Assembly (NCBI RefSeq): GCF_025943985.1
Contig: NZ_JAPCWE010000008.1
Coordinates: 1 to 64,000 of the forward strand
Length of the DNA stretch: 64,000 nt
Direction of reading: 5' to 3'
DNA from: Anaerorudis cellulosivorans
Lineage (GTDB): Bacteria > Bacteroidota > Bacteroidia > Bacteroidales > Dysgonomonadaceae
In this document: piece after piece, positions 991 through 20,048 of the stretch
Layout: each line of letters begins with the position of its first letter
Numbering within the stretch: the stretch's first letter is position 1
The notes under the pieces: model-generated
The model's database searches: none
What the model was told of the DNA's origin: nothing
What the model saw: the letters and a program-made list of their open reading frames with translations, nothing else
Program-made: the position numbers and the translations under genes

Positions 991-3618
991 ATGAGTATGT
1001 CTTCTGACGAAATTTTTGATGACAATTTAGATAAAGCTGCTAAAATACCGACGCGATTGGGCGACGATGCACCCATGAATCTTTCGAAAATGTACCAGAC
1101 GTGGTTTCTGGATTACGCTTCGTATGTAATCCTGGAACGTGCCGTACCGCATATCGTAGATGGACTGAAGCCGGTTCAGCGACGCATCCTGCATGCCATG
1201 AAACGCATGGACGACGGCCGATACAACAAGGTGGCCAATATCATTGGTGCCACAATGCAATATCATCCCCACGGCGATGCTTCCATTGGCGATGCTCTTG
1301 TGCAATTGGGGCAGAAAGGGTTGCTCATCGATTGTCAGGGCAATTGGGGAAATATTTTGACGGGCGACGGTGCTGCTGCGCCACGATATATCGAGGCGCG
1401 TCTTTCGAAATTTGCCCTCGAAGTGCTTTTCAATCCTAAAACTACCGAATGGAAACCGTCGTACGACGGGCGCAACAAGGAACCGGTTACGTTGCCGGTG
1501 AAGTTTCCGTTGTTGCTGGCGCAGGGCGTTGAAGGGATTGCGGTGGGCCTTTCGTCAAAAATTCTACCACACAATTTCAACGAAATCTGCGATGCGGCAG
1601 TGGCGTATCTCGAAGGTAGAGAGTTTAAGTTGTACCCCGATTTTCAAACCGGGGGCAGCATCGATGTGGAGCATTATAACGATGGCGAGCGCGGCGGATC
1701 GGTGAAAGTGAGAGCTGCTATTTCGAAGCTCGACAACAAAACGCTCGTCATTAAAGATATTCCTTACGGAAAAACCACATCTACGGTGGTAGATTCTATT
1801 CTTAAGGCCAACGACAAGGGTAAAATCAAAATAAAGAAAGTGGACGATATTACGGCCGAAAACGTGGAGATTCAGGTGCAGCTTGCTCCGGGAGTGTCGT
1901 CAGATAAAACCATCGATGCGCTTTATGCGTTCACCGATTGCGAAGTTACCATTTCTCCCAATTGCTGTGTTATCAAGGATGATAAGCCGCAGTTTCTCAC
2001 GGTTAGCGATTTGCTGCGCGATTCTGTCGATCGTACCAAAGATCTTCTTCGTCAAGAGTTGGAAATCGCAAAAGAAGAAAAACAGGAGGAATTGCTTTTT
2101 GCTTCGCTCGAAAAGATTTTCATTCAAGAGCGAATTTATAAGGATAAGGAATTCGAGAATGCTGAGGACATGGATGCGGCTGTGCTTCACGTTGATAAAC
2201 GACTCGAACCTTTCAAATCGCAGTTTCTTCGCAAAATCACTCGCGAAGATATCCTCCGCCTGATGGAAATAAAAATGGCGCGCATCCTTCGCTTCAACTC
2301 CGACAAGGCCGACGAAGTGATTGCCAAGCTGAATGAAGAAATTGCCGAAATTGACGATCACCTCAATCACCTGGTCGATTATACCATTGCCTGGTATCGA
2401 ATGCTCAAAGAGAAATACGGCAAAAGTTTTCCGCGCAAAACCACCATTCGCAGTTTTGAGAACATTGAGGCGGTGAAAGTGGCCGAAGCTAACGAAAAAC
2501 TGTATATCAACCGCGAAGAAGGGTTCATCGGAACAGGTCTGAAGAAGGATGAGTTTGTTTGCAACTGTTCCGATATCGACGACGTGATCGTTTTCTTCAA
2601 GGACGGGAAATACAAGGTGGTGAAAGTGAGTGAAAAAATGTTCGTAGGGAAAGGAATTCTTTACGCCAATGTGTTTAAGAGAAACGATAAACGAACCATC
2701 TATAATGTGGTATATCGTGACGGAAAAACGTCGCCTTATTATATCAAGCGATTTTCGGTAACAGGCGTTACACGCGATAAGGAGTACGACTTGACGCGCG
2801 GAAAACCGGGATCGCGTATCGTGTATTTCAGTGCTAATCCCAATGGAGAAGCCGAAACCATCAAAGTGATCCTGAAGCCTAAACCCCGGATGCGTATTCT
2901 GCAGTTCGAGAAAGACTTTGGCGATATTGCCATTAAAGGCCGACAGGCAATGGGGAATATGCTTACAAAGGCTGAAGTGCATCGCATTTTGCTCAAGCAA
3001 AAAGGGGTGTCGACGTTGGGCGGACGTAAAGTGTGGTTCGATCCCGATGTGTTGCGCCTCAACTACGATGGTGAAGGTACTTATCTGGGCGAGTTTCAGG
3101 GCGAAGACGAAATATTGGTTGTAACCCGAAACGGCGAGTACTATACCTGCAATTTCGATTTGAGCAACCATTTTCCGACCGATTATCTGAAAATAGAGAA
3201 ATACGACAAAAATAAAGTTTGGACAGCGGCTCTCTTTAATGCCGATCAAGGGTATGCCTATCTGAAAAGGTTTACCTTTGAACCTTCGGAGAAACCGTTG
3301 AATTTCATTGGCGATAATCCGCAATCGAAATTATACTTGCTCACCGACACGGTTTATCCGTATCTGCAGGTTGTTTTTGGCGGAAACGATGCGTTTCGCG
3401 ATCCGATGGAGATAGATGCCGATGAGTTTATTGCCGTGAAAAGTTATAAAGCCAAAGGGAAACGCTTGTCGAACTACGAAGTGGAAACAGTGAATGAGTT
3501 AGAACCCAAACGCTTTCCGGAACCCGTTAACGAGGAACAGCATTCTACAAATGTAGAGATCGATGAAGAGGATGTGTTGGACGAAATTACCGGACAGATG
3601 CGATTGTTTGACAAATAG
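991..3618 (+). CDS. parC: DNA topoisomerase IV subunit A
   Basis: This 875-residue type IIA topoisomerase subunit breaks and rejoins the gate DNA strand; with ParE it unlinks daughter chromosomes. The winged-helix/tower core is clear: the active-site Arg-Tyr pair is in the APRYIEARL motif (Tyr133), preceded by HPHGD (92-96). A long helical region (about 360-470) and a C-terminal beta-pinwheel region follow. I prefer ParC to GyrA because the N-terminus (MYQTWFLDYASYVILERAVPHIVDGLKP) and the HPHGDASIGDALV segment look like the Bacteroidota ParC branch, and no clear GyrA-box (QRRGGKG) is visible in the tail. The residue aligned with the quinolone-contact Ser after HPHGD is Ala97. parE is not adjacent. 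Confidence 0.88.
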   Translation: MSMSSDEIFDDNLDKAAKIPTRLGDDAPMNLSKMYQTWFLDYASYVILERAVPHIVDGLKPVQRRILHAMKRMDDGRYNKVANIIGATMQYHPHGDASIGDALVQLGQKGLLIDCQGNWGNILTGDGAAAPRYIEARLSKFALEVLFNPKTTEWKPSYDGRNKEPVTLPVKFPLLLAQGVEGIAVGLSSKILPHNFNEICDAAVAYLEGREFKLYPDFQTGGSIDVEHYNDGERGGSVKVRAAISKLDNKTLVIKDIPYGKTTSTVVDSILKANDKGKIKIKKVDDITAENVEIQVQLAPGVSSDKTIDALYAFTDCEVTISPNCCVIKDDKPQFLTVSDLLRDSVDRTKDLLRQELEIAKEEKQEELLFASLEKIFIQERIYKDKEFENAEDMDAAVLHVDKRLEPFKSQFLRKITREDILRLMEIKMARILRFNSDKADEVIAKLNEEIAEIDDHLNHLVDYTIAWYRMLKEKYGKSFPRKTTIRSFENIEAVKVAEANEKLYINREEGFIGTGLKKDEFVCNCSDIDDVIVFFKDGKYKVVKVSEKMFVGKGILYANVFKRNDKRTIYNVVYRDGKTSPYYIKRFSVTGVTRDKEYDLTRGKPGSRIVYFSANPNGEAETIKVILKPKPRMRILQFEKDFGDIAIKGRQAMGNMLTKAEVHRILLKQKGVSTLGGRKVWFDPDVLRLNYDGEGTYLGEFQGEDEILVVTRNGEYYTCNFDLSNHFPTDYLKIEKYDKNKVWTAALFNADQGYAYLKRFTFEPSEKPLNFIGDNPQSKLYLLTDTVYPYLQVVFGGNDAFRDPMEIDADEFIAVKSYKAKGKRLSNYEVETVNELEPKRFPEPVNEEQHSTNVEIDEEDVLDEITGQMRLFDK

Positions 3619-3663
3619 GGAGAAAAGGAACGATTTTGTTTACCCCATATCAAAAAAAGGCGT

Positions 3664-4566
3664 ATGATAAAGAAATTATCTCTTACTCTTTTTCTGCTGA
3701 CGGTGATTTCCGCCGGCGGTTTTTCGCAGGAAATACCGATGTTGCAGGAAATGACGGATTCGGTTTCACAGAAAAAGCCCTGTTCGGTATTGTCAGAATT
3801 GAAACCCGTGAATCGAGCAACATTATTAGGCGTCGGAAAAGGGTTCCTCACCGATACGTATCTTTCTCCCTTGGAATATGACGGATTGACTTTTTCTCTC
3901 CTGCATGAACGACTGAAAGGGACTTCTTTTTTTAACGAGAAATTGCTGCTGCAGCATCAGTTCCAGATTCAGATTGCGAGCACCGATAATCCAACCAAAA
4001 CGGGATCGTCGTATTACGGAAATCTTTATTACGAACTAAACGGTTTTTATCCGTTGGTGGAAACCAACCGTTTTAGGTGGTATGGTGGTGCCGGTTGGAA
4101 TGCCGAGTTGGGTGGTATTTACAACGAACGCAATTCCAACAATCCCGGATCATTGAAAGTATCCACCAACCTCAATCTCGCCACAATGGCACTGTTCGAC
4201 TGGCGTATGTTTACTTTCCGTTGGCAGTTGAGTACTCCTATTGCGGGACTGTTTTTTTCTCCCGAATACGGACAATCGTATTACGAAATGTTTACGTTGG
4301 GAAACGACGACGGTACTGCAATTTTCGGTTCGTTACATAATCAACGGGCCATTCGCAACTATTTTACGGTGGATTTTCCTGTTGGAAATGTAACTATTCG
4401 TACCGGTTACCTTGGAAATTATTACTATACCGATGTAAACCATATCGTTACCAAAATCTTATCGCATCAGTTTATGATCGGGTTTGCCGTTGAATCGCTG
4501 AATGTCGGAGGAAAACGCCTAAAGCAAAACCGTTGGCTGCATAGTGTCTATTACAACGAACCCTAA
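3664..4566 (+). CDS. Secreted DUF3316-like protein, probably outer-membrane associated
   Basis: The 300-residue product starts with a clear signal peptide (MIKKLSLTLFLLTVISAGGFSQ, cleavage near residue 22). The rest is rich in alternating aromatic/polar segments (YYGNLYYELNGFYPL, RWYGGAGWNAELGG, VTIRTGYLGNYYY), as in a small outer-membrane beta-barrel. The LGVGKGFLTDTYLSPLEYDG segment recalls the DUF3316 family of Bacteroidales, whose function is unknown. It begins 45 nt after parC and its 3' end overlaps or abuts menA, so it may be co-transcribed with both. The last residues end in a conserved-looking HSVYYNEP. Barrel topology is an inference; family membership is from memory of the motif. 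Confidence 0.6.
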   Translation: MIKKLSLTLFLLTVISAGGFSQEIPMLQEMTDSVSQKKPCSVLSELKPVNRATLLGVGKGFLTDTYLSPLEYDGLTFSLLHERLKGTSFFNEKLLLQHQFQIQIASTDNPTKTGSSYYGNLYYELNGFYPLVETNRFRWYGGAGWNAELGGIYNERNSNNPGSLKVSTNLNLATMALFDWRMFTFRWQLSTPIAGLFFSPEYGQSYYEMFTLGNDDGTAIFGSLHNQRAIRNYFTVDFPVGNVTIRTGYLGNYYYTDVNHIVTKILSHQFMIGFAVESLNVGGKRLKQNRWLHSVYYNEP

Positions 4567-4579
4567 TGTTTTTTCGACA

Positions 4580-5482
4580 ATGGCTTCTGTAAAGGATTGG
4601 ATATTGGCTTTTAGGTTGCGTACGCTTTTTTTGGCAGCATCAACGGTGATATTGGGAAGCGGTTTAGCCCTGCACGAGGGAATGTTTTCCCTAGCAACCT
4701 TTGCTCTTGCACTGGTTTTAGCCCTTTCGGCTCAGATATTGTCCAATCTTGCAAACGACCTCGGGGACTACCAAAAGGGAACGGATATAACGGGAAATCG
4801 TAAAGGTCCCGTTCGTGCCGTACAAAGTGGACGTATTACCGCAGAACAGATGAAGCGGGGCGTAGCGATCGTGGCAGTGTGGGTTGCTGTTGTCGGGTTG
4901 GTCCTTGTTTTAAGTACCGCCACAATGATCGGTTGGAAATCTGTGGCAATTATGCTTGTGGTGGGACTGTCGTGCATTTTGGCGGCTGTGGGTTACACGT
5001 TGGGAAAACATGCTTACGGATACAGAGGGTGGGGCGATTTTTTCGCTTTTTTGTTTTTTGGTCCCGTTCCTGTTATTGGTACTTATTTTTTACACGTACA
5101 TTCATTCGATTTTGAGCCTGTGCTTCCGTCGATCGGTTCAGGATTGATCAGTGCGATGATTTTGAATATAAACAATATGCGCGATATTGACAATGATCGT
5201 GCAGCGGGCAAAGTAACTCTTGCGGCCAAGTTGGGACTGCAAAATGCCAAAATTTACCATACGTTGCTCACGTGTCTGATGTGTGCGTGTTTTTTCACAT
5301 ACAGTCTTTTGTATGCCTCAACGCCGTGGTATAGGTATTTATATGTGCTTGTGTTTGTGTTTCCCCTGAAGATATTGGCAGAAATTTATCAAAAAAGTGG
5401 GAAGGATTTGGATCCCTATTTAAAGCAAACCTCCTTGTTCAGCTTTTTGTTGGCCATCGTTTTTACGCTTTGCATCAATTGA
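4580..5482 (+). CDS. menA: 1,4-dihydroxy-2-naphthoate polyprenyltransferase
   Basis: An integral-membrane UbiA-family prenyltransferase that joins a polyprenyl diphosphate to 1,4-dihydroxy-2-naphthoate in menaquinone synthesis. Both Asp-rich, Mg-diphosphate-binding motifs are present: NDLGDYQKGTD early, followed by GNRKGPVRAVQSG, and NNMRDIDNDRAAGK in the middle. About eight or nine hydrophobic segments are visible. I start at the ATG at 4580, giving MASVKDWILAFRLRTL, the usual MenA beginning. An upstream in-frame ATG at 4544 would overlap the previous gene by 23 nt and add 12 residues with no family match. Other men genes are not nearby. Confidence 0.85.
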   Translation: MASVKDWILAFRLRTLFLAASTVILGSGLALHEGMFSLATFALALVLALSAQILSNLANDLGDYQKGTDITGNRKGPVRAVQSGRITAEQMKRGVAIVAVWVAVVGLVLVLSTATMIGWKSVAIMLVVGLSCILAAVGYTLGKHAYGYRGWGDFFAFLFFGPVPVIGTYFLHVHSFDFEPVLPSIGSGLISAMILNINNMRDIDNDRAAGKVTLAAKLGLQNAKIYHTLLTCLMCACFFTYSLLYASTPWYRYLYVLVFVFPLKILAEIYQKSGKDLDPYLKQTSLFSFLLAIVFTLCIN

Positions 5483-5679
5483 ATTTTGAAAGGCAAATGA
5501 GTGGTTCCCAGCCGCAGAAATAATTAAAAATGGAACCATTCTCAAAATGGATTACGCTAATAATGAAGGAATGAATGGAGCTATTAAAAATAAACCCTAT
5601 ATTTGAGGCGCATTGAAAATCCAAGTTTTCATAAACAACTTTGTGAAATTTGACAATTAGATAAATAATAACACAAAAA

Positions 5680-6369
5680 ATGAAACGGCTTTTAATACAT
5701 CTGCATTATGTATTGATTCTTTTCGGGCTTTCGGGTTCAATGATTGCAAAGGCTGATATTTGGGATAATCCGAGAGTTCAGATCTATTATTCAGAGAATA
5801 AGGAATTCAAATTAATCATCACTCCAAAAAAAATTCCCGACAAATATTATCAATGGAAAAACTATAAGAATAATAAACATCCTCAGACAAAAACAATTTT
5901 ACGAAAAAAGCTGAAATTTATGCAGAGTATTTCACCTAAAGACACGATTTTAATTCCTTGCATGGCGGAATTGTATCAAATAAAAGGAACTGATAGTATT
6001 TTGTTGTGGAAAAATAAATTGCTGAATGATATTTGTCCTGTCTATGCGATAGTATCAAATAATGGCTCTTCGGTTGCAACATTTGATAATTGGTATTCAA
6101 CCGGATATGGTGTCAATGTATTTGTGATATATAATGCGGAAGGAGAGGCGAAAAGGACATATAAACTTGAAGAAATAAGTCCTTTTCCTCTGAATGACTA
6201 TTCTTTGTCAATTTCATCTATATACTGGAGAAAGAATGCTCGATTTATTGACAATGAAAGGATTAGTATTGAATTTGCAACGGAGAATAACGAAATCAAG
6301 AAAAGAATATATAACACAAAAAAATTATCATTTGAAGAATACCTACCTTGTAATCACGACATAATATAG
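5680..6369 (+). CDS. Secreted protein of unknown function
   Basis: 229 residues with a signal peptide (MKRLLIHLHYVLILFGLSG..., cleavage near residue 25 after AKA). The mature part has a conserved-looking core with AIVSNNGSSVATFDNWYSTGYG followed by a short beta-rich stretch ending in SISSIYWRKN. I do not recognise a named domain. The gene is visibly more AT-rich than its neighbours (AAT, AAA and ATA codons dominate) and is preceded by a 197-nt AT-rich gap. The next gene, 79 nt downstream, has the same composition, so the two probably entered or evolved together. A Thr/Asn/Lys-rich periplasmic or surface role is likely; a function should not be inferred. Confidence 0.6.
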   Translation: MKRLLIHLHYVLILFGLSGSMIAKADIWDNPRVQIYYSENKEFKLIITPKKIPDKYYQWKNYKNNKHPQTKTILRKKLKFMQSISPKDTILIPCMAELYQIKGTDSILLWKNKLLNDICPVYAIVSNNGSSVATFDNWYSTGYGVNVFVIYNAEGEAKRTYKLEEISPFPLNDYSLSISSIYWRKNARFIDNERISIEFATENNEIKKRIYNTKKLSFEEYLPCNHDII

Positions 6370-6448
6370 CTTCATGCAATCCCCGAGATTTCGGACCATC
6401 GACCATTAAAGGGAAAACCTAAGAACGGCAAATACAACAGATAAAAAT

Positions 6449-7051
6449 ATGAAAGTTCGATTGATTAGAAAAGAAGAATTTAGGAGTTATTTTTTACCGG
6501 TTATTTTTTATGGACCAATATTAGGATTGATAATTTTCCTTGTGATGCGTGTGGATAATACTATGCAAATTTCTGCGATTAAGGGTTTTTCTTTGGGGAT
6601 AGTCATAGTTTTTGGTCTTCAACTGTTGGGTTTTATTATTATGGAAATATTTGTACGAGGAAATCAAATAAAAAAGCTACAGAAAGAGAACTTCAAAATA
6701 CTTGAACAATGTGGAATTCAGTTGTGTGACGATTTAGTATTTAGAGGAAATTATAAAGGATATCGGATTGATATTTATCCATATGAAGTGATTGTTAAAA
6801 AACGAAAACAACTGCATTTCACAATAAAATCATATTATAATTATCCGGATAGTCTAGTCAATGAGAGCTCAAAATTGAATTATGATCAAATGAATTGTAA
6901 TACGTATGATATAGGAACAATTAATTTCAATAGGAACATTGTTTCAATAGTGCCAACTGATGGGAATAATCCTGATTTTAAATCTTTAATAGACTTCTTG
7001 ATTTATAAATTGCAAGAATTAGAATTGACTCCGTTTGACTTTAAAACATAA
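6449..7051 (+). CDS. Membrane protein of unknown function with two N-terminal transmembrane helices
   Basis: 200 residues. Two hydrophobic segments (about 14-33 and 44-66) are followed by a soluble domain of about 130 residues that starts with a short charged helix (QIKKLQKENFKILEQCG) and a beta-rich part (YKGYRIDIYPYEVIVKKRKQLHFTIKSYY). No known domain is recognised. Codon use is AT-rich like the gene before it, and unlike menA and the lyase gene on either side. The membrane topology suggests that the soluble domain faces the cytoplasm, but that is a guess from charge. Confidence 0.6.
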   Translation: MKVRLIRKEEFRSYFLPVIFYGPILGLIIFLVMRVDNTMQISAIKGFSLGIVIVFGLQLLGFIIMEIFVRGNQIKKLQKENFKILEQCGIQLCDDLVFRGNYKGYRIDIYPYEVIVKKRKQLHFTIKSYYNYPDSLVNESSKLNYDQMNCNTYDIGTINFNRNIVSIVPTDGNNPDFKSLIDFLIYKLQELELTPFDFKT

Positions 7052-7105
7052 AGGGTTTCCATCTCACTTCAATTTTTTCGTGTACCGTGAACAAAATATA
7101 ATCGC

Positions 7106-7113
7106 TATCTTTG
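7106..7113 (+). promoter_or_regulatory. Candidate -7 promoter element for the C-S lyase gene
   Basis: TATCTTTG fits the Bacteroidota -7 box exactly. No good TTTG is found 18-21 nt upstream, so either an activator is needed or the match is fortuitous. The leader to the ATG at 7226 would be about 105 nt. Confidence 0.4.
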
Positions 7114-7225
7114 AAACAAAAAATTTACTTTGGAGCGAACATTTCCATTGTAAAGGATTATTCTAAGATTGTGAACAGTAAAAGAGGAAATTTACAAATT
7201 GGAAATTTTATTAGAAAAGAAAAGA

Positions 7226-11076: not shown

Positions 11077-12900
11077 ATGATGAATAGAATTATTCGATTA
11101 ATTAAAATCTACCTTTTATTTATATTGGTTTTTCTTTTGCAGAAGCCGCTTTTTATGTTGTATTATCACAATTTGTATCACGATGTGTCGTTTATCGATT
11201 TTGTTCGTGTACTGGTCAACGGATTAAAGTTGGATGCTTCTATGGCGGGTTATTTAACCCTTTTGCCGGGATTTTTTCTGATTGCCTCGGAATGGGTGCC
11301 GTCTTCTGTCATCGAAAAGATTTTTAAGGGTTACTTTGCTCTTGTGGCATTGCTTATCTCTATCATTTTTGTTGCGGATATTGCTTTGTATGGCTACTGG
11401 GGATTTCGGTTGGATGCTACGGCTCTTTTCTATATGAAATGGCCGAAGGATGCTATGGCTAGCGTAAATGTTTTTACCGTTATTATTGGAATTGCGGTTA
11501 TTGTGGGAATATCGGTTCTGCTGTATTATGTGTTTTCCCGCGCAATATTGCGGAACAAATGCAGTGAAAGGCAAATCGAAAATCGTTTTTTGACGGTTTT
11601 CCCTCTCCTTTTGCTTATCGCAGCACTTTTTATCCCCATTCGTGGAGGATTTGAAGTTTCAACCATGAACACAGGTAAAGTGTATTTTAGCTCGCGAATC
11701 AATTTGAATCATGCGGCTGTCAATCCCATGTTCAGTTTTATGGAATCTCTTTTTAAGGAACAGAATTTCGAAAAACAATATCGTTTCCTGAGCGAAGAAG
11801 AAGCCAGAGAGGAATTTAAAAAATTGGTGGAACAACCTTCCGACAAATCGATTCCTGTTTTATTCGATACAACGCGTCCCAATATCATTATGATTGTTTT
11901 GGAAAGTTTCGGGTCGAAGGTGGTGGAACCTCTTGGAGGAATCCCGGGAATAGCCACCCGTTTGAATCGGTATTGCGAAGAGGGAATTTTGTTTACGAAT
12001 TTTTATGCAAACAGTTTTAGAACTGATCGCGGGTTAGTGTCTATTTTTAGTGGTTATCCTGCGCAACCCACTACTTCCATCATGAAGTATCCCCGTAAAA
12101 GCCAAACCTTGCCTTCCATCACCAAAACATTGAAACAAAACGGCTATTCCACTACCTATTATTATGGAGGGGATGCTGATTTTACCAATATGCGTTCGTA
12201 TTTGGTTTCGCAGGGAATCAGTGATCTCGTTACCGAACAGGATTTTCCTGCCAAAGACCGAACCACCAAATGGGGGGTGCATGATCATATTGTGTTTCAA
12301 CGTTTTTTGGCGGATCTGCAAAAACCGCAACAAGAGCCTTTTATAAAAATTATGCAGACGTTGAGCAGTCATGAGCCATTTGATGTGCCTTTTCACAAAA
12401 GCAATGATCTTTATTTGAATTCCGTACAATATACGGATAGTTGTTTGGGCGAATTTATTGAAGGATTTAAGAAGACGAAATATTGGGCAAATTCGATCAT
12501 TGTGTTGGTGCCCGACCATGCCATGCATTATCCGTCGTCCATCGATATTCGTTCTATCGAACGTTACCGGATACCTTTTCTCATCTTGGGAGGTGCTGTA
12601 AAAGCACCGGGGAAAATTGATGCCTATGCTTCACAAATCGATATTGCTGCTACGCTGCTGCACCAATTTCAAATTCCTCATTCGGAATTTACTTTCAGTA
12701 AAAATATCGTGAATCCCGATTCCCCTCATTTTGCTTTTTATACTTTTCCAAACGGATTTGGGTTTTTAACCTTGGAAAATCATTATGTATATGATTGTGC
12801 TTCACAATCGGTTGTGGTAAATGAAGGGAATGAATCGGAAAACCGAAAAAAAGGAGAAGCCTATCTTCAAATTCTTTATGATGATCTGGCGAGCAGGTAA
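11077..12900 (+). CDS. LtaS-like membrane sulfatase-fold phosphotransferase
   Basis: A 607-residue protein with about five N-terminal membrane helices (to about residue 205) and a large extracytoplasmic domain of the alkaline phosphatase/sulfatase superfamily. Metal-site and nucleophile motifs are seen: IIMIVLESFGSK, NSFRTDRGLVSIFSGYPAQP with the probable nucleophile Thr, and VPDHAMHYP near the C-terminal part. Gram-positive LtaS uses this layout to polymerise glycerol phosphate from phosphatidylglycerol. Bacteroidota make no lipoteichoic acid, so the substrate is more likely a periplasmic glycan or lipid receiving a phospho-alcohol group, as with OpgB or EptA relatives. An AGGAGA stands upstream of the start. 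The gene appears monocistronic. Confidence 0.8.
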   Translation: MMNRIIRLIKIYLLFILVFLLQKPLFMLYYHNLYHDVSFIDFVRVLVNGLKLDASMAGYLTLLPGFFLIASEWVPSSVIEKIFKGYFALVALLISIIFVADIALYGYWGFRLDATALFYMKWPKDAMASVNVFTVIIGIAVIVGISVLLYYVFSRAILRNKCSERQIENRFLTVFPLLLLIAALFIPIRGGFEVSTMNTGKVYFSSRINLNHAAVNPMFSFMESLFKEQNFEKQYRFLSEEEAREEFKKLVEQPSDKSIPVLFDTTRPNIIMIVLESFGSKVVEPLGGIPGIATRLNRYCEEGILFTNFYANSFRTDRGLVSIFSGYPAQPTTSIMKYPRKSQTLPSITKTLKQNGYSTTYYYGGDADFTNMRSYLVSQGISDLVTEQDFPAKDRTTKWGVHDHIVFQRFLADLQKPQQEPFIKIMQTLSSHEPFDVPFHKSNDLYLNSVQYTDSCLGEFIEGFKKTKYWANSIIVLVPDHAMHYPSSIDIRSIERYRIPFLILGGAVKAPGKIDAYASQIDIAATLLHQFQIPHSEFTFSKNIVNPDSPHFAFYTFPNGFGFLTLENHYVYDCASQSVVVNEGNESENRKKGEAYLQILYDDLASR

Positions 12901-12949
12901 AACAACATGCTTTTCTCGAAAGAGGACTTTTATGTTTTAAAACTTAATA

Positions 12950-13004
12950 ATTATGTCATATTTTTGTAACAACTTTGTAACATAAGTGTTATATTTTTGT
13001 AACC
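12950..13004 (+). promoter_or_regulatory. Five tandem 11-bp units, candidate PhoB-binding array before pstS
   Basis: Five exactly phased 11-bp units begin at 12950, 12961, 12972, 12983 and 12994: ATTATGTCATA, TTTTTGTAACA, ACTTTGTAACA, TAAGTGTTATA and TTTTTGTAACC. All carry a TGTnAyA-like core at the same position. Known Pho boxes are 11-bp direct repeats with a TGTCAT-like core. The -7 box of pstS (12992-12999) overlaps units 4 and 5, so units 1-3 occupy the place where a -33 box would be. Assignment to PhoB is inferred from spacing, core and gene context. Confidence 0.75.
12992..12999 (+). promoter_or_regulatory. -7 promoter element of the pst-pho unit, lacking a -33 box
   Basis: TATTTTTG matches TAnnTTTG. 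At the expected -33 position (12968-12971) the sequence is AACA, inside repeat unit 2. A promoter without a -33 box fits activator dependence. The predicted leader before the pstS ATG is about 23 nt. Confidence 0.6.
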
Positions 13005-13028: not shown

Positions 13029-14177
13029 ATGAAGAAAAAATTGCTGTTGTTTTCTGTGGTTTGTTTGGCGTTATTTTCTTGCAGCGGGAGCAAGGACAAG
13101 AGCAAAAGGTCGATAGGGGTTACGCTTTCGGGAGCAGGTGCTACTTTTCCTTATCCTTTTTATAGTATAGTTTTTAGGGATTACATGCGTAAGCATCCCG
13201 GGGTAACAATCAATTACGGAGCTATTGGCAGCGGAGGAGGAATTCGCAGTTTGCGCGATAAATCGGTAGATTTTGGTGCCAGCGATGCGTTTTTAAACGA
13301 AAAAGAAATTGCCTCCATGGGTGCCGAAGTTGTTCATATTCCCACTTGCATGGGTGGTGTGGCGTTGTCTTACACGCTTAGAGGAGTGGATAGCCTGCGA
13401 CTCACAGGTGAATTGGTTGCCGATATTTTTATGGGAGAAATTACCCGATGGAGTGATCCGCGGATTGCCGCCGAAAATCCGGGCATTTCTCTTCCCGATG
13501 TAGAGATAACGCCGGTGTACCGTTCGGATGGAAGTGGAACCACATTTGTTTTTTCGGATTATCTGAGTAAAGTAAGTCCGAAATGGAATAAGATAATGGG
13601 CAAAGGAAAAGCATTGAAGTGGAACGCCGGACTCGCAGCGAAAGGAAATCCCGGAGTGGCAAGTGTGGTGCAACTGACGGAAGGAGCCATCGGGTATATC
13701 GGATCGGAATATGCCTTTACGCTGCAAATGCCGTCGGCCATTATTAAAAACAAAGCCGGCAATTACGTGAAGGCTTCATTGAAAACCATTGCGGCTGCAG
13801 CAGAAACCGATTTGCCCGACGATATGAAACTTACGCTTACCGATATGCCGCACCCCGATGCATATCCCATCAGCCTGATGACGTGGTTGCTGGTTTACCG
13901 GGATCAGGCTTATGGCGGGCATTCAAGGCAAGAGGCCGAAGTGCTGGTCGATTTACTGAATTATATTATCGGACCGGAAGGACAGCAATTGGCGGAACAG
14001 GTGAATTTTGTGCCTCTGCCTTTTCAGGCCGTGCAAAAGACACAACGCCTTATTAACCATATTCATTTTGCAGGAGAGCGAATATCGACGGTTCCCGATC
14101 CGGAAATAGCTGTAGTTAAATTTTTATCGACAGATACCGTAACCGATCATCAAAGAACGGTACGCTATGAAAAATGA
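13029..14177 (+). CDS. pstS: Phosphate ABC transporter substrate-binding lipoprotein
   Basis: Periplasmic phosphate-binding component of the high-affinity Pst transporter, 382 residues. It has a lipoprotein signal peptide with lipobox LFSC (Cys18). Phosphate-site motifs are conserved: LSGAGATFPYPFY, GAIGSGGGIRSLRDKSVDFGASDAFL, and YRSDGSGTTFVFSDYLSKVSP. It is the first gene of the unit, directly behind the 11-bp repeat array, and is followed 6 nt later by pstC. The C-terminus (about 350-382) extends beyond the usual PstS end with ISTVPDPEIAVVKFL, not recognised. Confidence 0.95.
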   Translation: MKKKLLLFSVVCLALFSCSGSKDKSKRSIGVTLSGAGATFPYPFYSIVFRDYMRKHPGVTINYGAIGSGGGIRSLRDKSVDFGASDAFLNEKEIASMGAEVVHIPTCMGGVALSYTLRGVDSLRLTGELVADIFMGEITRWSDPRIAAENPGISLPDVEITPVYRSDGSGTTFVFSDYLSKVSPKWNKIMGKGKALKWNAGLAAKGNPGVASVVQLTEGAIGYIGSEYAFTLQMPSAIIKNKAGNYVKASLKTIAAAAETDLPDDMKLTLTDMPHPDAYPISLMTWLLVYRDQAYGGHSRQEAEVLVDLLNYIIGPEGQQLAEQVNFVPLPFQAVQKTQRLINHIHFAGERISTVPDPEIAVVKFLSTDTVTDHQRTVRYEK

Positions 14178-14183
14178 TTACGA

Positions 14184-15041
14184 ATGAAAGATAGGGTTTT
14201 TAAAGGATTGCTTTTTGCTGCTGCCTTGATCATTTTGATGTTGACGGCAGGGATTATTTATGTTTTGATAAAGAATTCGTTAGATGTTTTTCAAACGTAT
14301 GGTTTTTTTGGCTTTATATTTAATGCAGAATGGGATCCTCGCTCCGATTCAGAAGAATATGGTGCGTGGTCTTTTATAATCGGAACCCTTTTCACGGCTT
14401 TTTTTGCGCTATTGCTTTGTATCCCTTTTTCTTTGCCGGTAGCGTTGTTCAACGGTGAATACTTCAAAGGTCGGAAGATATCGTCTGTTGTAGGTTCGGT
14501 AGTCGACTTGCTTGCCGGTATTCCTTCTATTGTATACGGCTTATGGGGATTTTATACGTTACGTCCGGTTGTTATTCAGTTGGGCGTCAATGCATCGGGT
14601 TTCGGAATTTTTCTTGCTTCGGTAGTATTGGCCATCATGATTATTCCGTATGCTTCATCGTTGAGTGCCGAATTTTTGTCGATGATTCCCGATACGGTGA
14701 AAGAGGGGGCATACAGTTTAGGGGCCACGCGGGCAGAAACGATTTGGCATGTAAGCCTGCCAATGGCAAGTTCGGGCATTGTTGCTGCGTATATCCTTGC
14801 CTTAGGAAGAGCTTTAGGCGAAACAATGGCTGTGACCATGCTTATCGGTAACACCACTAATGTGCCCTCTTCGTTGCGTGATACCGGAAACACGATGGCA
14901 AGCGTTATCGCCAATCAGTTTGGCGAAGCCGACGGGTTAAAGTTGAGTGCTCTTATCGGGATTGGCTTGTTGTTGTTTGTTATAACGGCAATAATTAATC
15001 TGATAGCCAAATTTATCATGAAAAAATTAGCAGCCGGATGA
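14184..15041 (+). CDS. pstC: Phosphate ABC transporter permease PstC
   Basis: One of two inner-membrane permease subunits that form the phosphate channel. At 285 residues it has about six membrane helices. The cytoplasmic coupling (EAA) loop reads EGAYSLGATRAETIWHVSLP, and the ALGRALGETMAVTMLIGN stretch is typical of PstC. It overlaps pstA by 4 nt (ATGA), indicating translational coupling. Confidence 0.93.
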   Translation: MKDRVFKGLLFAAALIILMLTAGIIYVLIKNSLDVFQTYGFFGFIFNAEWDPRSDSEEYGAWSFIIGTLFTAFFALLLCIPFSLPVALFNGEYFKGRKISSVVGSVVDLLAGIPSIVYGLWGFYTLRPVVIQLGVNASGFGIFLASVVLAIMIIPYASSLSAEFLSMIPDTVKEGAYSLGATRAETIWHVSLPMASSGIVAAYILALGRALGETMAVTMLIGNTTNVPSSLRDTGNTMASVIANQFGEADGLKLSALIGIGLLLFVITAIINLIAKFIMKKLAAG

Positions 15042-15928
15042 AAGATAAGGATAGGGATAAGATGATGTGGTCGAACATAAAGAAACGGTCAGCCAAAGAT
15101 AAAATCGTTTTTGGAGCCATTTGTTTCTTTTCGTTCCTTTCTATGATTCCGTTGTTTCTCATTATTTGGGAAGTGGTATCGAAAGGATATAAAAATTTCA
15201 ATTGGCGTTTGTTTACACAGGTTGCACCTTCTTCAATGGACGCTTTGATTGCGAAAATGAGCGGCGAACCCATTCCGGGAGGTATTCTCAATGGCATCAC
15301 CGGAACTTTTCTTATTGTGGGGCTGGCAGTTTTATTTACGGTTCCGTTGGGATTGTTCGTCGGCATTTATCTTTCGGAGCATCGCGACAACAAGTTTGCA
15401 CAAACCGTGAGTTACCTCACCGATTTGCTGCAGGGTATGCCCTCCATCGTTATCGGTATCATTGCATACATATGGGTGGTGAAACCACTGGGAAGTTATT
15501 CGGCATTAGCCGGGAGTGTGGCTCTTACCATTATGATGTTGCCCATGGTAGTGCGCTCGACAGAAGAGACCCTGAAAATGCTTCCTCATTCGTTGAAAGA
15601 AGCCGGATTGGCATTAGGTGCATCTTATACTGATGTGATTTTTAAAGTTATGGTACCATCCGGATTCGGGGGAATTTTTACGGGGATTTTGCTGGCTGTT
15701 TCGCGTGTCATGGGCGAAACGGCGCCTCTTATGCTGACGGCACTGGGCGCTTCGGTGGTCAACTGGAATATTTTGGAACCTACCGCCGCCATTCCTCTGT
15801 TGATTTGGGATTTTTATAATGATCCCAATTTGGTCGATATCATTTGGTCTGCTTCGTTGTTGCTCTTAATCGTGATATTTTTGCTAAACTGGCTCGCTAA
15901 AATTGTTGCACGCAAATGGAAAATATAA
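15038..15928 (+). CDS. pstA: Phosphate ABC transporter permease PstA
   Basis: The second permease subunit, 296 residues and six predicted helices. Seen: [17 protein letters not shown], the coupling loop [23 protein letters not shown], and [17 protein letters not shown], which separates PstA from PstC. Its 3' end overlaps pstB by 13 nt. The N-terminus is polar and Lys/Asp-rich before the first helix; a start at the second Met cluster ([10 protein letters not shown]) is possible. Confidence 0.93.
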
Positions 15929-16725
15929 CGGAAAATCGATTGAACAATCAAGAAGATAATTCGGGTAATGAACCCATATTGGTGTTGAAGGAGGTATCCG
16001 TATCGTACGCACCCGGGAAAAAGGCAGTCGATAATGTTTCTGCCGATATTTATCCCAATACCATTACGGCCATCATGGGACCTTCGGGTTGTGGCAAAAG
16101 TACTCTCTTGAGGGCTATCAACCGAATGCATGATCTTTATCCCAATATCGTGACCAGCGGCGATATTTATCTGAAAGGGAAAAATATTATGAAAATGAAC
16201 CCGATGGAGGTACGTCGAATGGCCGGTATGGTTTTTCAAACTCCCAACCCTTTCCCAACCATGAGTATTTACGACAATGTGTTGGCGGGTTATCGACTTA
16301 ACGGCATCAAACTGAAGAAGAATGAAAAAGATGAAATTGTACGTAAAAGTCTTACGGCTGTAGCCTTGTGGGATGAAGTGAAGGATGTGATGAACCGGCG
16401 CGGATCGTTTCTTTCCGGGGGGCAGCAACAGCGACTATGCATTGCTCGTGCATTGGCACTGAAACCTGAAGTCTTGCTTATGGATGAACCTACCTCCGCA
16501 CTTGACCCGGTTTCTACCAATAAAATTGAAGAATTGCTGTTGGAACTCAAAAAGAATTTTACTATTCTTATTGTTACACACAACATGTCGCAGGCGGCCC
16601 GTATATCGGACAACTCCATGTTTATGTATCTTGGCGATTTGGTTGAATACGCTCCTACAAAGCAGATGTTTACCAAACCTAAAAACAAGAAAACCGAAGA
16701 ATATCTTACCGGCATTTTCGGATAA
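15916..16725 (+). CDS. pstB: Phosphate ABC transporter ATP-binding protein
   Basis: The 269-residue ATPase drives phosphate import. Walker [10 protein letters not shown] (about 55-63), Q-loop [15 protein letters not shown] typical of PstB, signature LSGGQQQRL, Walker [13 protein letters not shown] and the switch His in [13 protein letters not shown] are all present. A polar N-terminal stretch of about 20 residues precedes the ABC fold. It begins inside the 3' end of pstA. Confidence 0.96.
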
Positions 16726-16803: not shown

Positions 16804-17544
16804 ATGTCAATGGATGCTTTTAACGATAACTTTGGCCTATCCAATTCTTCGATTAAAGAAAAATATTTGGAGGAGTTGCAAAGCGATTTCCGGATTCTTT
16901 CGGAGATTGTGCTCAATCAGATTGCGCTAACGCAAAAATTGCTGGAAAATAATCTCGACGAGGAGACATTGGTGGAAATATCGAGAAACGAAAAATTAAT
17001 CGATTCGCTGGATCTTACCATCAGGGAAAAAGTAATTAATGCCATTATTCTTTTTACGCCACGTGCCACTGATCTCAGAAAAATCATGGCTTATCACGAT
17101 ATCACCATTTCCATGGAAAGGGTGGGCGACCAGATTCTGAATGTTGCGGGATTTTTGAAGAAAACCGATCTTACCATTGATGGATTTGAAAATTATCGGG
17201 AACATTTGGACAAAATGCTGATATATGCAGTCAATATGTTGAAAAATGCCATTTTTTCTTTTACCGGCTTAAGTCACGAATTAGCATATGAAACTATTCA
17301 GATGGACGACAAAGTGGATAAGTGGGATAAAAAAATGGAAAAACGTCTTGCTGATGAATTCAAGGACAGGGTGCTCAGCCATCAAGCACTGATGAATATC
17401 ATGAGTATTACTGCCATTTCGTATAACATCGAGCGGATAGCCGATATGGCAGTTAATATGGCCGAAGCTGCTATCTATCTCGTGGAGGGTAAGGATATAC
17501 GGCATAAAAAAATGGAAGAAAAAAAACCCCCCATGCATTCTTAA
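16804..17544 (+). CDS. phoU: Phosphate signalling protein PhoU
   Basis: PhoU couples the Pst transporter to the PhoR kinase and turns signalling off when phosphate is plentiful. The 246-residue protein is all helical, with two PhoU repeats each ending in a metal-binding E/D-rich helix: DITISMERVGDQILNVA (about 99-115) and ITAISYNIERIADMAVNMAEA (about 200-220). The Lys/His/Glu-rich C-terminus is extra. A 78-nt gap separates it from pstB; I see no clear promoter in it, so it is likely part of the same transcript. Confidence 0.9.
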   Translation: MSMDAFNDNFGLSNSSIKEKYLEELQSDFRILSEIVLNQIALTQKLLENNLDEETLVEISRNEKLIDSLDLTIREKVINAIILFTPRATDLRKIMAYHDITISMERVGDQILNVAGFLKKTDLTIDGFENYREHLDKMLIYAVNMLKNAIFSFTGLSHELAYETIQMDDKVDKWDKKMEKRLADEFKDRVLSHQALMNIMSITAISYNIERIADMAVNMAEAAIYLVEGKDIRHKKMEEKKPPMHS

Positions 17545-17574: not shown

Positions 17575-18276
17575 ATGGAGGCAATGCAAGGAAAAATTTT
17601 AGTCGTTGATGACGAAAAAGATATTTGCGATATTCTGCAATTTAATCTCGAGAACGAAGGATTCGAGGTCGATGTGGCATATTCGGGTGAGGAAGCCCTT
17701 CAGAAGTTAGCCGACAGTAGCCACAGCCTGGTTATATTGGATGTGATGATGGAAGGTATGTCGGGTTTTAAAATGGCAGAAAAGGTGCGAAAAGAGGGTA
17801 ATCCGGTTCCCATCATTTTTTTAACGGCAAAAAATGCTGAAAACGACATGCTTAAAGGGTTTTCGTTGGGAGGAGACGATTATATTACCAAACCCTTTTC
17901 GGTGAAAGAGGTGCTTGCAAGAGTTGGGGCCGTCTTAAAGCGAACGAAAATGATTCAGCCATCATTCCGAAAATGGGTATATGGAGACTTGGTTATCGAT
18001 ATGATTTCCAATCGGGTAACTATCAGAGACGAAGAAGTGCCCTTTACGAAAAAGGAATTTGAGATCTTGGTGTTATTGGCTCAATCGGCGCCACATATTC
18101 TCACGCGCGCCGAAATTCTCAATAAGGTTTGGAGTGATAACGAATTTGTGTTGGATAGAACAGTGGATGTGCACATTACCCGTTTGCGTAAAAAATTGGG
18201 CGATTATGCTTCGCTTATTCAGAACCGGTCGGGATTTGGTTATTATTTGAATACGGATTTAAAAGTCGAAAAATGA
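17575..18276 (+). CDS. phoB: Response regulator, PhoB-like (OmpR family)
   Basis: A 233-residue regulator with an N-terminal receiver domain (VVDDEKD acidic pocket near residues 10-14, phospho-acceptor Asp56 in LVILDVMM, Lys in FLTAKNAEND) and a C-terminal winged-helix domain (FTKKEFEILVLLAQ, LTRAEILNKVW, VDVHITRLRKKLG). Its place directly between phoU and phoR makes it the phosphate-starvation regulator and the probable ligand of the 11-bp array upstream of pstS. The start could also be Met4. It overlaps phoR by 4 nt. Confidence 0.85.
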   Translation: MEAMQGKILVVDDEKDICDILQFNLENEGFEVDVAYSGEEALQKLADSSHSLVILDVMMEGMSGFKMAEKVRKEGNPVPIIFLTAKNAENDMLKGFSLGGDDYITKPFSVKEVLARVGAVLKRTKMIQPSFRKWVYGDLVIDMISNRVTIRDEEVPFTKKEFEILVLLAQSAPHILTRAEILNKVWSDNEFVLDRTVDVHITRLRKKLGDYASLIQNRSGFGYYLNTDLKVEK

Positions 18277-20048
18277 AATTTACACTTTCGTACCGAAAAA
18301 AAATTTTTATCTATTTTTCCGTCATCATTGCCGTTTTTACGGTAGGGATTATCGCTTTTGAGCAAAACCGACTTAGACGCGAGAGAACGGCAAATCTGGA
18401 AAATATTATGGATGTTTATGCCGAAACGGTTCATCGCTATATTTCCGAAAATCGCCTGTACGAAAAAGATAGCCTTTCGGCTCTAAGTGAGTTGCTTTCT
18501 TATTTGCCGGATGATGGGGTCAGATTAACCGTTATCGATTGGCAGGGAAATGTATTGTATGATAACACCTTGCTTGCCGACACGATGGAAAATCACCTGC
18601 AGAGGCCGGAAATTCAAAAGGCAATTCTGCGACAGAGTGGTACGCATGTGCGTGTTTCGTCGACCAACAACGTGAAATATATGTATTATGCCAAAAAATA
18701 CGAAGAAGGGTATTTCGTACGCGTGGCTTTGCCTTACGATATAAAAGTAAAACCTGTTCTCAGTGCCAAAGACAGTTTTGTGTATTATGTTTTGCTCTTT
18801 TTTATAGTGTGTGTGTTGATGATGAACTATTTTGCCAATCGGTTTTCAAAATCGATTAAGGAGTTGAGGGAATTTTCATTACAGCTGAAGAGCGGACAAC
18901 CGATAAGTCGGCCCATGAATTATATGGACGATGAAATTGGGGAGATCAGTGCCGATATTATCGAAAATTATAACCTTTTACAGCAGAATCGGAAGCAATT
19001 GGCCTTGGAACGCGAAAAATTGCTGCAACATTTTCAATATTCTGAAGAAGGGATTGCAATTTTTTCAAGCGATCGTAAAAAAATATATGCTAATCCGCAT
19101 TTTTTACAATACCTCAACGTGATTGCCGATACAACAGTATTGGATGCTGAAAAAGTGTTTACGGATCCTCATTTTAGCGATGTTGTGCGTTTTTTGGAAA
19201 TCAAACCGCGAAAAGAAAATATTTATACCAAACGTATCGAAAAAAGCGGCAAACAGTTTAATGTCCGGGTAATTGTTTTTGATGACGAAAGTTTCGAAAT
19301 CTATATTGCTGACGTAACCAAACAGGAAAAAACCCGTCTGTTGAAGCAGGAAATGACCAATAATATTGCACATGAACTGCGTACCCCTGTTACAGCTATC
19401 AGAGGCTATATCGAAACGTTGCTTACCTTAGACGATACCGATGTGGAGCGAAGACGAAATTTTTTGGAGCGTGCTTATGCACAAACCATGCGTTTGTCGG
19501 AACTGATTCAGGATATTACCCTATTGACGAAAATAGAAGAAGCGCCTGATCGTTTCGAATGGGAACCGGTGAACATTAAACAACTGCTGGAAGAGCTTGC
19601 TTCAGATTTGAAAGAACGGTTTAAAGAGAAAAACGATCCTTTCGTTATCGATGTGGGTGATGAGGTAACCGTAAACGGAAACCGTACCTTGCTTTATTCC
19701 ATTTTTCGCAATTTGGCGGAAAATTCATTAATTCATGGCGGAGAGAATATCGAAATAGGTGTACGTTGTTATGCTATAACCGAGGATGCCTTGTACTTTG
19801 AGTTTTATGACACCGGTGTCGGAGTAGATGAACACCACCTGAGGCGTATTTTTGAACGATTTTATCGGGTTAATGAGGGGCGTACACGTAATACAGGAGG
19901 TTCAGGTTTAGGTTTGTCTATTGTAAAAAATGCCGTGTTGTTTCATCATGGTAGCATTGTAGCAAAAAATCGTCCGGGAGGAGGTTTAATGTTTCTCATC
20001 ACTTTCCCCCGCTTCAACCAAAAGAACAGTAGATCAGAAGAAATATGA
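18273..20048 (+). CDS. phoR: Sensor histidine kinase, PhoR-like
   Basis: A 591-residue membrane kinase. It has a first helix (about 11-28), an extracytoplasmic sensor region (about 30-165), a second helix (about 168-187), a HAMP-like linker, a PAS-like domain (about 250-350), and a HisKA domain with phospho-acceptor His367 in [16 protein letters not shown]. The HATPase domain follows with [16 protein letters not shown] and [10 protein letters not shown]. The periplasmic domain is larger than that of E. coli PhoR, as is usual for PhoR/WalK-type kinases outside the Proteobacteria. Start overlaps phoB and end overlaps nfo by 4 nt, so all three are translationally coupled. Confidence 0.87.

Follow-up and report, generated by a model that had tools for sequence, protein, structure and literature searches.

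A Pho box is described, in the portion of the source available, as a series of tandem 11-nt direct repeats, each with 7 conserved and 4 less conserved nucleotides; its letters vary by species, and the PhoP boxes of Bacillus subtilis are presented there as comparable 11-nt direct repeats (PMC4415409). Structural models of PhoB with polymerase, as far as the available text describes them, support strict spacing between box and promoter (PMC10294691). Within the Bacteroidota, excerpts of two reports describe PhoB regulons known from expression data (PMC3547664, PMC8115612). Bacteroides fragilis PhoB, from the order to which our locus belongs, binds a 512-bp pstC promoter fragment and is required for pstC expression (excerpts of PMC3547664); no box sequence was found in those excerpts. 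In Flavobacterium johnsoniae, the available text ties the PhoBR operon to low-phosphate-induced Tbdt and FII lipoprotein genes (PMC8115612). For Riemerella anatipestifer PhoP, of the same phylum, the accessible text gives TTTAACA as the most conserved motif letters, reports binding to its own operon, calls the motif ArcA-like and states neither a number of units nor a period or promoter spacing (PMC9603813). Putative Pho boxes have also been marked before plcP genes of marine bacteria, with flavobacteria among the organisms studied, according to the portion of PMC4796936 available, which gives no sequence for them. A search of the open-licence PMC literature found no published Bacteroidota PhoB operator with four units or a promoter spacing.

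Here we describe an 11-bp repeat array ahead of the pst-phoU-phoBR operon in the window, a 64,000-nt stretch of the Anaerorudis cellulosivorans genome, and compare it with two Escherichia coli promoters, pstS and phoB (MG1655, NC_000913.3). Inspection of E. coli pstS reveals TGTCATAAAAC TGTCATATTCC TTACATATAAC TGTCACCTGTT, then TGTCC, then TATTTTGC, a layout shared with the window: four 11-bp units, 5 nt and a -10-type box ahead of the same operon product. We take TATTTT to be the E. coli pstS -10. The third unit of E. coli pstS is weak, as it is in the 39 related arrays described below. The letters differ, the core being TGTCAT in E. coli and [C/T][G/T]TAA[C/T]A here, and the -10 box is replaced by a TAnnTTTG -7 box. 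E. coli phoB (TTTCATAAATC TGTCATAAATC, then TGACG, then CATAAT) has its Pho box in the same register as the window, with two units instead of four. The Riemerella letters TTTAACA fit the unit core, a likeness of motif letters reported by DAP-seq in the text available. The B. subtilis PhoP boxes, whose core is similar to TTAACA, belong to a different phylum and a different promoter and are likened by description.

A phased repeat array precedes pst-phoU-phoBR

The array lies in a 128-nt intergenic region of 25% G+C, between a PF00884-type gene (11077-12900) and pstS (13029). The PF00884 protein weakly resembles phosphoglycerol transferases and lipoteichoic acid synthases, below cut-offs. Positions 12954-13004 hold five cores in one phase (TGTCATA, TGTAACA, TGTAACA, TGTTATA and TGTAACC), joined by TTTT, ACTT, TAAG and TTTT. 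The best five units agree with TGTNAYA at 34/35 positions when read at period 11 versus 22-25 at periods 8-10 and 12-14, so that 11 is the sole fitting period among the 8-14 tested. None of 2000 dinucleotide shuffles of the intergenic region reaches 34/35 (shuffle maximum, 27), and the best unrelated site elsewhere on the window's + strand reaches 25. When no mismatches are permitted, a two-unit pattern has four matches in the 2.8-Mb genome, all within 12954-13004. The array has the repeat form of a Pho box, with tandem 11-nt direct repeats of seven conserved and four less conserved nucleotides. Because the units are almost symmetric, a profile of the array also matches the opposite strand of the window weakly (E = 0.008). 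An inverted repeat, AACATAAGTGTT (12979-12990), was considered as a possible CRP/FNR-type site; it requires the non-conserved spacer and is probably a chance occurrence.

All genes downstream lie on the + strand, and NCBIfam and Pfam models bear out the pst, phoU, phoB and phoR assignments of a preliminary description of this DNA. Cut-offs are exceeded by pstS (13029-14177; TIGR00975, 326.8 bits), pstC (14184-15041; TIGR02138), pstA (15038-15928; TIGR00974) and pstB (15916-16725; TIGR00972). The phoU gene (16804-17544) carries the Pfam PhoU domain and scores 117.6 bits with the full-length NCBIfam model, below its cut-off of 130.25. The presumed array binder, phoB (17575-18276; NF053854, 319.3 bits), and the sensor kinase gene phoR (18273-20048; NF053855, 605.8 bits) each exceed the cut-offs of Bacteroidota-specific NCBIfam models. 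The array therefore sits, as a Pho box does, ahead of phosphate-starvation genes. PhoB from the window is 37% identical to E. coli PhoB, and 13/15 letters are equal between DRTVDVHITRLRKKL in the former and DRTVDVHIRRLRKAL in the latter, a segment that we take to be the recognition helix.

A conserved layout of four units, a 5-nt spacer and a -7 box

Comparison with relatives shifts the limits of the array. When 15 upstream regions from nine genera are aligned with the window as seed, four units emerge, followed by 5 nt of spacer and a box of the TAnnTTTG type. The first unit, CTTAATAATTA (12943-12953), is in phase, is shared without change by the window and three congeners, and heads the family alignment, where CTTAAY starts 11/15 rows; it had been overlooked because it lacks TGT. 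The second, TGTCATATTTT (12954-12964), and third, TGTAACAACTT (12965-12975), are seen in the window reading, the family alignment and the congeners, and the promoter-proximal fourth, TGTAACATAAG (12976-12986), in the window reading and the family alignment. The spacer, TGTTA (12987-12991), has a fixed length in relatives, and TATTTTTG (12992-12999) follows at a fixed distance from the array. The latter is read as a -7 promoter box of the type TAnnTTTG. The window and three congeners share an unbroken identical block from AAACTTAATAATTATGTCATA through TAAGTGTTATA, while the flanks have drifted.

These features were followed through 39 arrays, which were picked with a window-seeded model and whose internal agreement is therefore partly selected. 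Across them the unit core [C/T][G/T]TAA[C/T]A is conserved and the 4-nt linkers are variable; at core position 4, 28-35 rows have A and 2-4 have C. The promoter-proximal unit has T, G and T at positions 1-3 in 38, 37 and 36 rows, respectively, the third unit is weak, and CTTAAY and CGTAACA units are used as well. The -7 box ends in TTG in 39/39 of these selected arrays. TTTG, the -33 consensus of the phylum, occurs 18-22 nt away in 2/39 arrays, with 1.4 expected, which confirms for the window and extends to the arrays generally the earlier observation that a -33 TTTG is missing. Like a Pho box, the array thus appears to replace the upstream promoter element.

The preliminary description had counted five phased 11-bp TGTnAyA units; their phase is real, as the 34/35 agreement and the 0/2000 shuffles indicate, and their number and limits give way to a conserved array of four units at 12943-12986. 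Its last two units, at 12987 and 12998, overlap the spacer, the -7 box and the sequence beyond, and are not retained as Pho units. A reading in which all five units of 12954-13004 function, with PhoB also on the -7 box and, for example, limiting its own promoter, would account for the 34/35 match to TGTNAYA and for the TGTTA letters of the fourth of these units, kept in three congeners. We nevertheless judge it very improbable. The core at 12987 agrees on average at 4.2/7 positions over the 39 arrays vs 5.3-6.5 for the four conserved units, no better than the best off-phase position (4.3; off-phase mean 2.8), and even this value is raised because the -7 box itself supplies TA. The 5-nt spacer columns show no strong base preference, and of the four rows formed by the window and three congeners, two have TGTAACC as the fifth unit and the other two TGTAGTC, so that this unit is lost in 2/3 congeners. 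The five-unit count also omits the conserved unit at 12943. An array larger than the usual two-unit box, as had been proposed, holds relative to E. coli phoB but not relative to E. coli pstS, which has four units, as does the conserved array here.

A second octamer identical to TATTTTTG lies at 12959-12966, within units 2-3. It was rejected as a regulated start, having no unit array upstream at the conserved distance, and is probably not the regulated promoter. The claim that 12992-12999 is the only good -7 box accordingly stands as to the right box, given its conserved distance, and falls as to its uniqueness. Taken together, the conserved operator is strongly supported as four predicted units (12943, 12954, 12965 and 12976), 5 nt and the -7 box at 12992-12999.

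The layout recurs before pstS in the family and in other lineages

In a model-free lag test that took one pstS upstream region from each of 9 genera, self-matches number 67 at lag 11 and 40 at lag 22, compared with 3-13 at the other lags between 7 and 24. With leave-one-genus-out models, 0/1000 shuffles reach the score in 8/9 genera, and 6/1000 do so for the one genus that fits poorly (L012). The same layout thus stands ahead of pstS in 8/9 genera of the family. The search for conserved phasing before pstS and other phosphate genes, suggested with the preliminary description, was positive in relatives (lag 11, 8/9 genera, and sites at phoB, pit and phoX described below).

Named pstS loci from other lineages were then scanned. 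We collected 80, of which 75 were usable; L074, L075, L091, L144 and L151 were dropped for want of an ATG by the rule applied, and L149 fell below the length needed for the upstream test (74 loci) but was included in the full scan (75). We set the score thresholds (14, 15, 17 and 20 bits) ourselves. A family-only model applied to the 200 nt before pstS finds 17/74 loci at 15 bits or more, and 0/74 in either the reversed or the reverse-complemented sequences. Across all 75 loci (585,333 bases), forward matches of at least 17 bits number 48 when neighbouring phases count separately; the other strand has 2 and the reversed controls have 0. A forward match is present in 37/75 loci and none in 38/75; matching records include Butyricimonas, Dysgonomonas, Mariniphaga, Marinifilum, Tannerellaceae, Porphyromonas and Phocaeicola.

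These sites fall within 225 nt of pstS in 14 loci and 1030-1170 nt upstream in 21, both positions being occupied in one locus, and a few sites lie elsewhere. In the 21 loci, the site is 14-146 nt ahead of an ORF encoding 323-350 residues, whose end lies 12-109 nt short of pstS. Six of these ORFs were scanned, and we term the group porin-like because 3/6 show weak beta-barrel or porin matches, the other 3 having none.

Spacing to the promoter was addressed with array-only matches. A TAnnTTTG-like box follows at exactly 5 nt in 9/12 loci, and other gaps of 0-14 nt account for 0/12, a strict spacing to the core promoter such as a Pho box has. L012 was left out of the model for both this gap test and the 75-locus scan.

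Simpler detectors performed poorly. Three perfect TGTNAYA units are found in 15/294 genomes of the order vs 3/294 for the backward pattern, and the window's own genome is the only family genome matching in that draw; the three-unit key was rejected, and it misses true arrays because those also use CTTAAY and CGTAACA units. A degenerate two-unit pattern with -7 box and at most 3 mismatches gives 22 matches in the window's own genome vs 32 in the reversed control, which makes the count unusable; its best matches pointed to two sites, on contigs C15 and C13, that were refound by the profile described next.

Profile search and the candidate regulon

A profile, R1, was built from sequence alone with 31 of the 39 arrays. 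In the family it matches 33/41 genomes, 10 of which gave training rows, and 23/31 when training genomes are excluded. Inspection of these counts bears on whether any specific regulator is needed, for the phased T-rich linkers might instead form curved or easily opened DNA that aids transcription without one, and the 25% G+C of the intergenic region would suit such a role. The conservation runs the other way, however, with the core [C/T][G/T]TAA[C/T]A kept while linkers vary and with strand and distance to the -7 box fixed. A column-permuted model of the same composition, itself without a positive control, matches 0/41 family genomes vs 33/41. We regard a purely structural role as extremely improbable, and a protein-binding operator remains the preferred reading.

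In the window's own genome, R1 returns only three sites below E = 0.003: the window array (E = 2e-9, in training), C15:23562 (E = 1.2e-5), which precedes a TonB receptor gene and then a 403-residue lipoprotein gene, and C13:77711 (E = 2.5e-4), which precedes a SusC/SusD pair. A match near a Pit-like gene, C20:24123, was rejected; the site faces away from the gene, with E = 1.2 over a partial match. Across the family, 53 distinct sites were read in 49 loci, 22 of them before PstS or PstS-like genes, 14 before TonB receptors, 7 before small CarbopepD-type proteins, 3 before PhoB, 2 before Pit-like proteins, 2 before a 56-residue membrane peptide, 1 before glutamate dehydrogenase and 2 before others. 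Gene classes were assigned by sequence motifs, with PhoB, one PstS-like protein and glutamate dehydrogenase further checked.

Beyond the family the yield declines. R1 matches 7/40 genomes of the order (5/38 outside the family) and, under a strict filter with 28 candidates scored per genome, 5/198 genomes of the phylum, one being the window's own (4/197 others). Genes beside the sites outside the family include those for PstS-type binding proteins, PhoX, a PHO4-type transporter, a phosphate porin, a TonB receptor and a calcineurin-like phosphoesterase. Among these 11 sites, L238 (not recovered by the scan) and L241 gave no clear gene, and the gene beside the L237 site had no Pfam match. With further sites ahead of pstS, phoB, pit, phosphate-porin, phoX and TonB-receptor genes, the gene context is that of a Pho box.

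Several of these loci are of interest in themselves. At the C15 locus (L155, G000:C15:21500-36000), positions 2063-6102 hold a candidate four-unit Pho box (CTTAACG TGTAATT CTTAATG TGTAACA, then GAGCTTTG), a TonB receptor with PF00593, PF13715 and PF07715, and the 403-residue lipoprotein, which has no Pfam match. This order resembles that of the Tbdt and FII lipoprotein genes induced by low phosphate in F. johnsoniae, as the accessible text describes them, the likeness being one of layout and not a sequence comparison. A second candidate Pho box lies ~4.6-4.7 kb beyond the first (L155 6727-7172), before a secreted CarbopepD_reg_2 protein of 111-129 residues; the site is weak (E = 0.23), and PF13715 is found in the protein encoded in the window's own genome. 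Seven sites of this CarbopepD_reg_2 type occur in other family genomes (L210-L215, L221). Weaker third sites in two genomes (L211 7323, 20.7 bits; L212 7390, 23.6 bits) precede a 56-residue membrane-like peptide, MAKRxFSxTQFGFIAI..., with no Pfam match. At L210 4617, a 31.5-bit site is followed after 282 nt by a gene for an NADP-specific glutamate dehydrogenase. The SusC/SusD pair of the window's own genome (L154, G000:C13:76000-88000, 1711-7178) lies behind a four-unit site and is possibly a phosphate-type PusCD system.

Co-occurrence points to PhoB as the probable binding protein

PhoB exceeds the NCBIfam cut-off in 35/41 family genomes, and those lacking it span four genera. The array is found in 32/35 genomes with PhoB vs 1/6 without (Fisher p = 0.0004, with relatedness ignored). 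Exceptions occur in both directions, as three PhoB genomes have no array match (G013, G015 and G016; 3/35) and one genome, G004, has weak array matches though without PhoB (1/6). This co-occurrence backs PhoB as the likely binder and is support, not proof; joint loss of array and PhoB does not single out PhoB because pst may vanish with it, as in G010 and G022, where there are no PstS matches.

The array might instead be bound by a paralogue of the OmpR/PhoB family, a different winged-helix response regulator with phosphate genes also under its control. The window's own genome has 15 PhoB-model matches at E of 0.001 or less, and the available text on Riemerella PhoP reports a motif similar to that of ArcA (PMC9603813). 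Among the matches listed, however, the 14 others fall below the PhoB cut-off and one exceeds it (G000:C8:17596). The target genes are phosphate genes, phoB itself carries the array in three genomes, and array and PhoB co-occur. A paralogue is thus a very improbable binder, and we retain PhoB, which has a DNA-binding domain like that of E. coli PhoB and, as expected for a Pho box, is encoded alongside the array.

Discussion

The features that would identify a Pho box from sequence are all present in this element, as far as they were assessed, with the exception in letters that TGTCAT itself occurs in 1/4 window units (12954). We therefore describe an element that would work like an E. coli Pho operator and is not of the TGTCAT sequence type. 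The evidence strongly supports the array as the predicted Bacteroidota Pho box of the pst-phoBR operon, and the four-unit array is very probably a PhoB landing site. The Pho box is a kind of element already known, and the four-unit Bacteroidota layout is a lineage form of that kind.

Sequence, phase, spacing, conservation, target genes and PhoB co-occurrence form the basis of the explanation that we consider best. It is highly likely on these grounds that 12943-12999 would be a PhoB-activated promoter, with four half-sites for two PhoB dimers replacing the -33 element. Occupancy of the array by PhoB would occur at low phosphate, when two tandem phosphorylated dimers would fill the four head-to-tail 11-bp half-sites (12943, 12954, 12965 and 12976). 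In the half-site nearest the promoter, the 7-nt core ends 9 nt short of the -7 box TATTTTTG, and PhoB placed there could substitute for the missing -33 element and recruit RNA polymerase. Transcription would begin ~5-8 nt past the -7 box and switch on pstSCAB-phoU-phoBR, phoB itself included. PhoB binding, its arrangement as two dimers, phosphorylation, activation and the transcription start are each inferred.

A broader proposal, to which we give slightly better than even chances, is that a four-unit PhoB operator is standard in the Bacteroidales and that its proximal unit keeps exactly the E. coli register to the -7/-10 box, such that the PhoB-polymerase contact is kept across two phyla. If true, that contact would have outlived the divergence of promoter elements and of half-site letters, and PhoB would simply stand in for the -33 element native to the phylum. 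An operator model defined to the nucleotide (four units, 5 nt, TAnnTTTG) would make it easier to separate direct from indirect PhoB targets, for example at the B. fragilis capsule loci discussed in the available text of PMC3547664. The model also points to low-phosphate genes of unknown function, and it would make PhoB-polymerase geometry testable outside the Proteobacteria.
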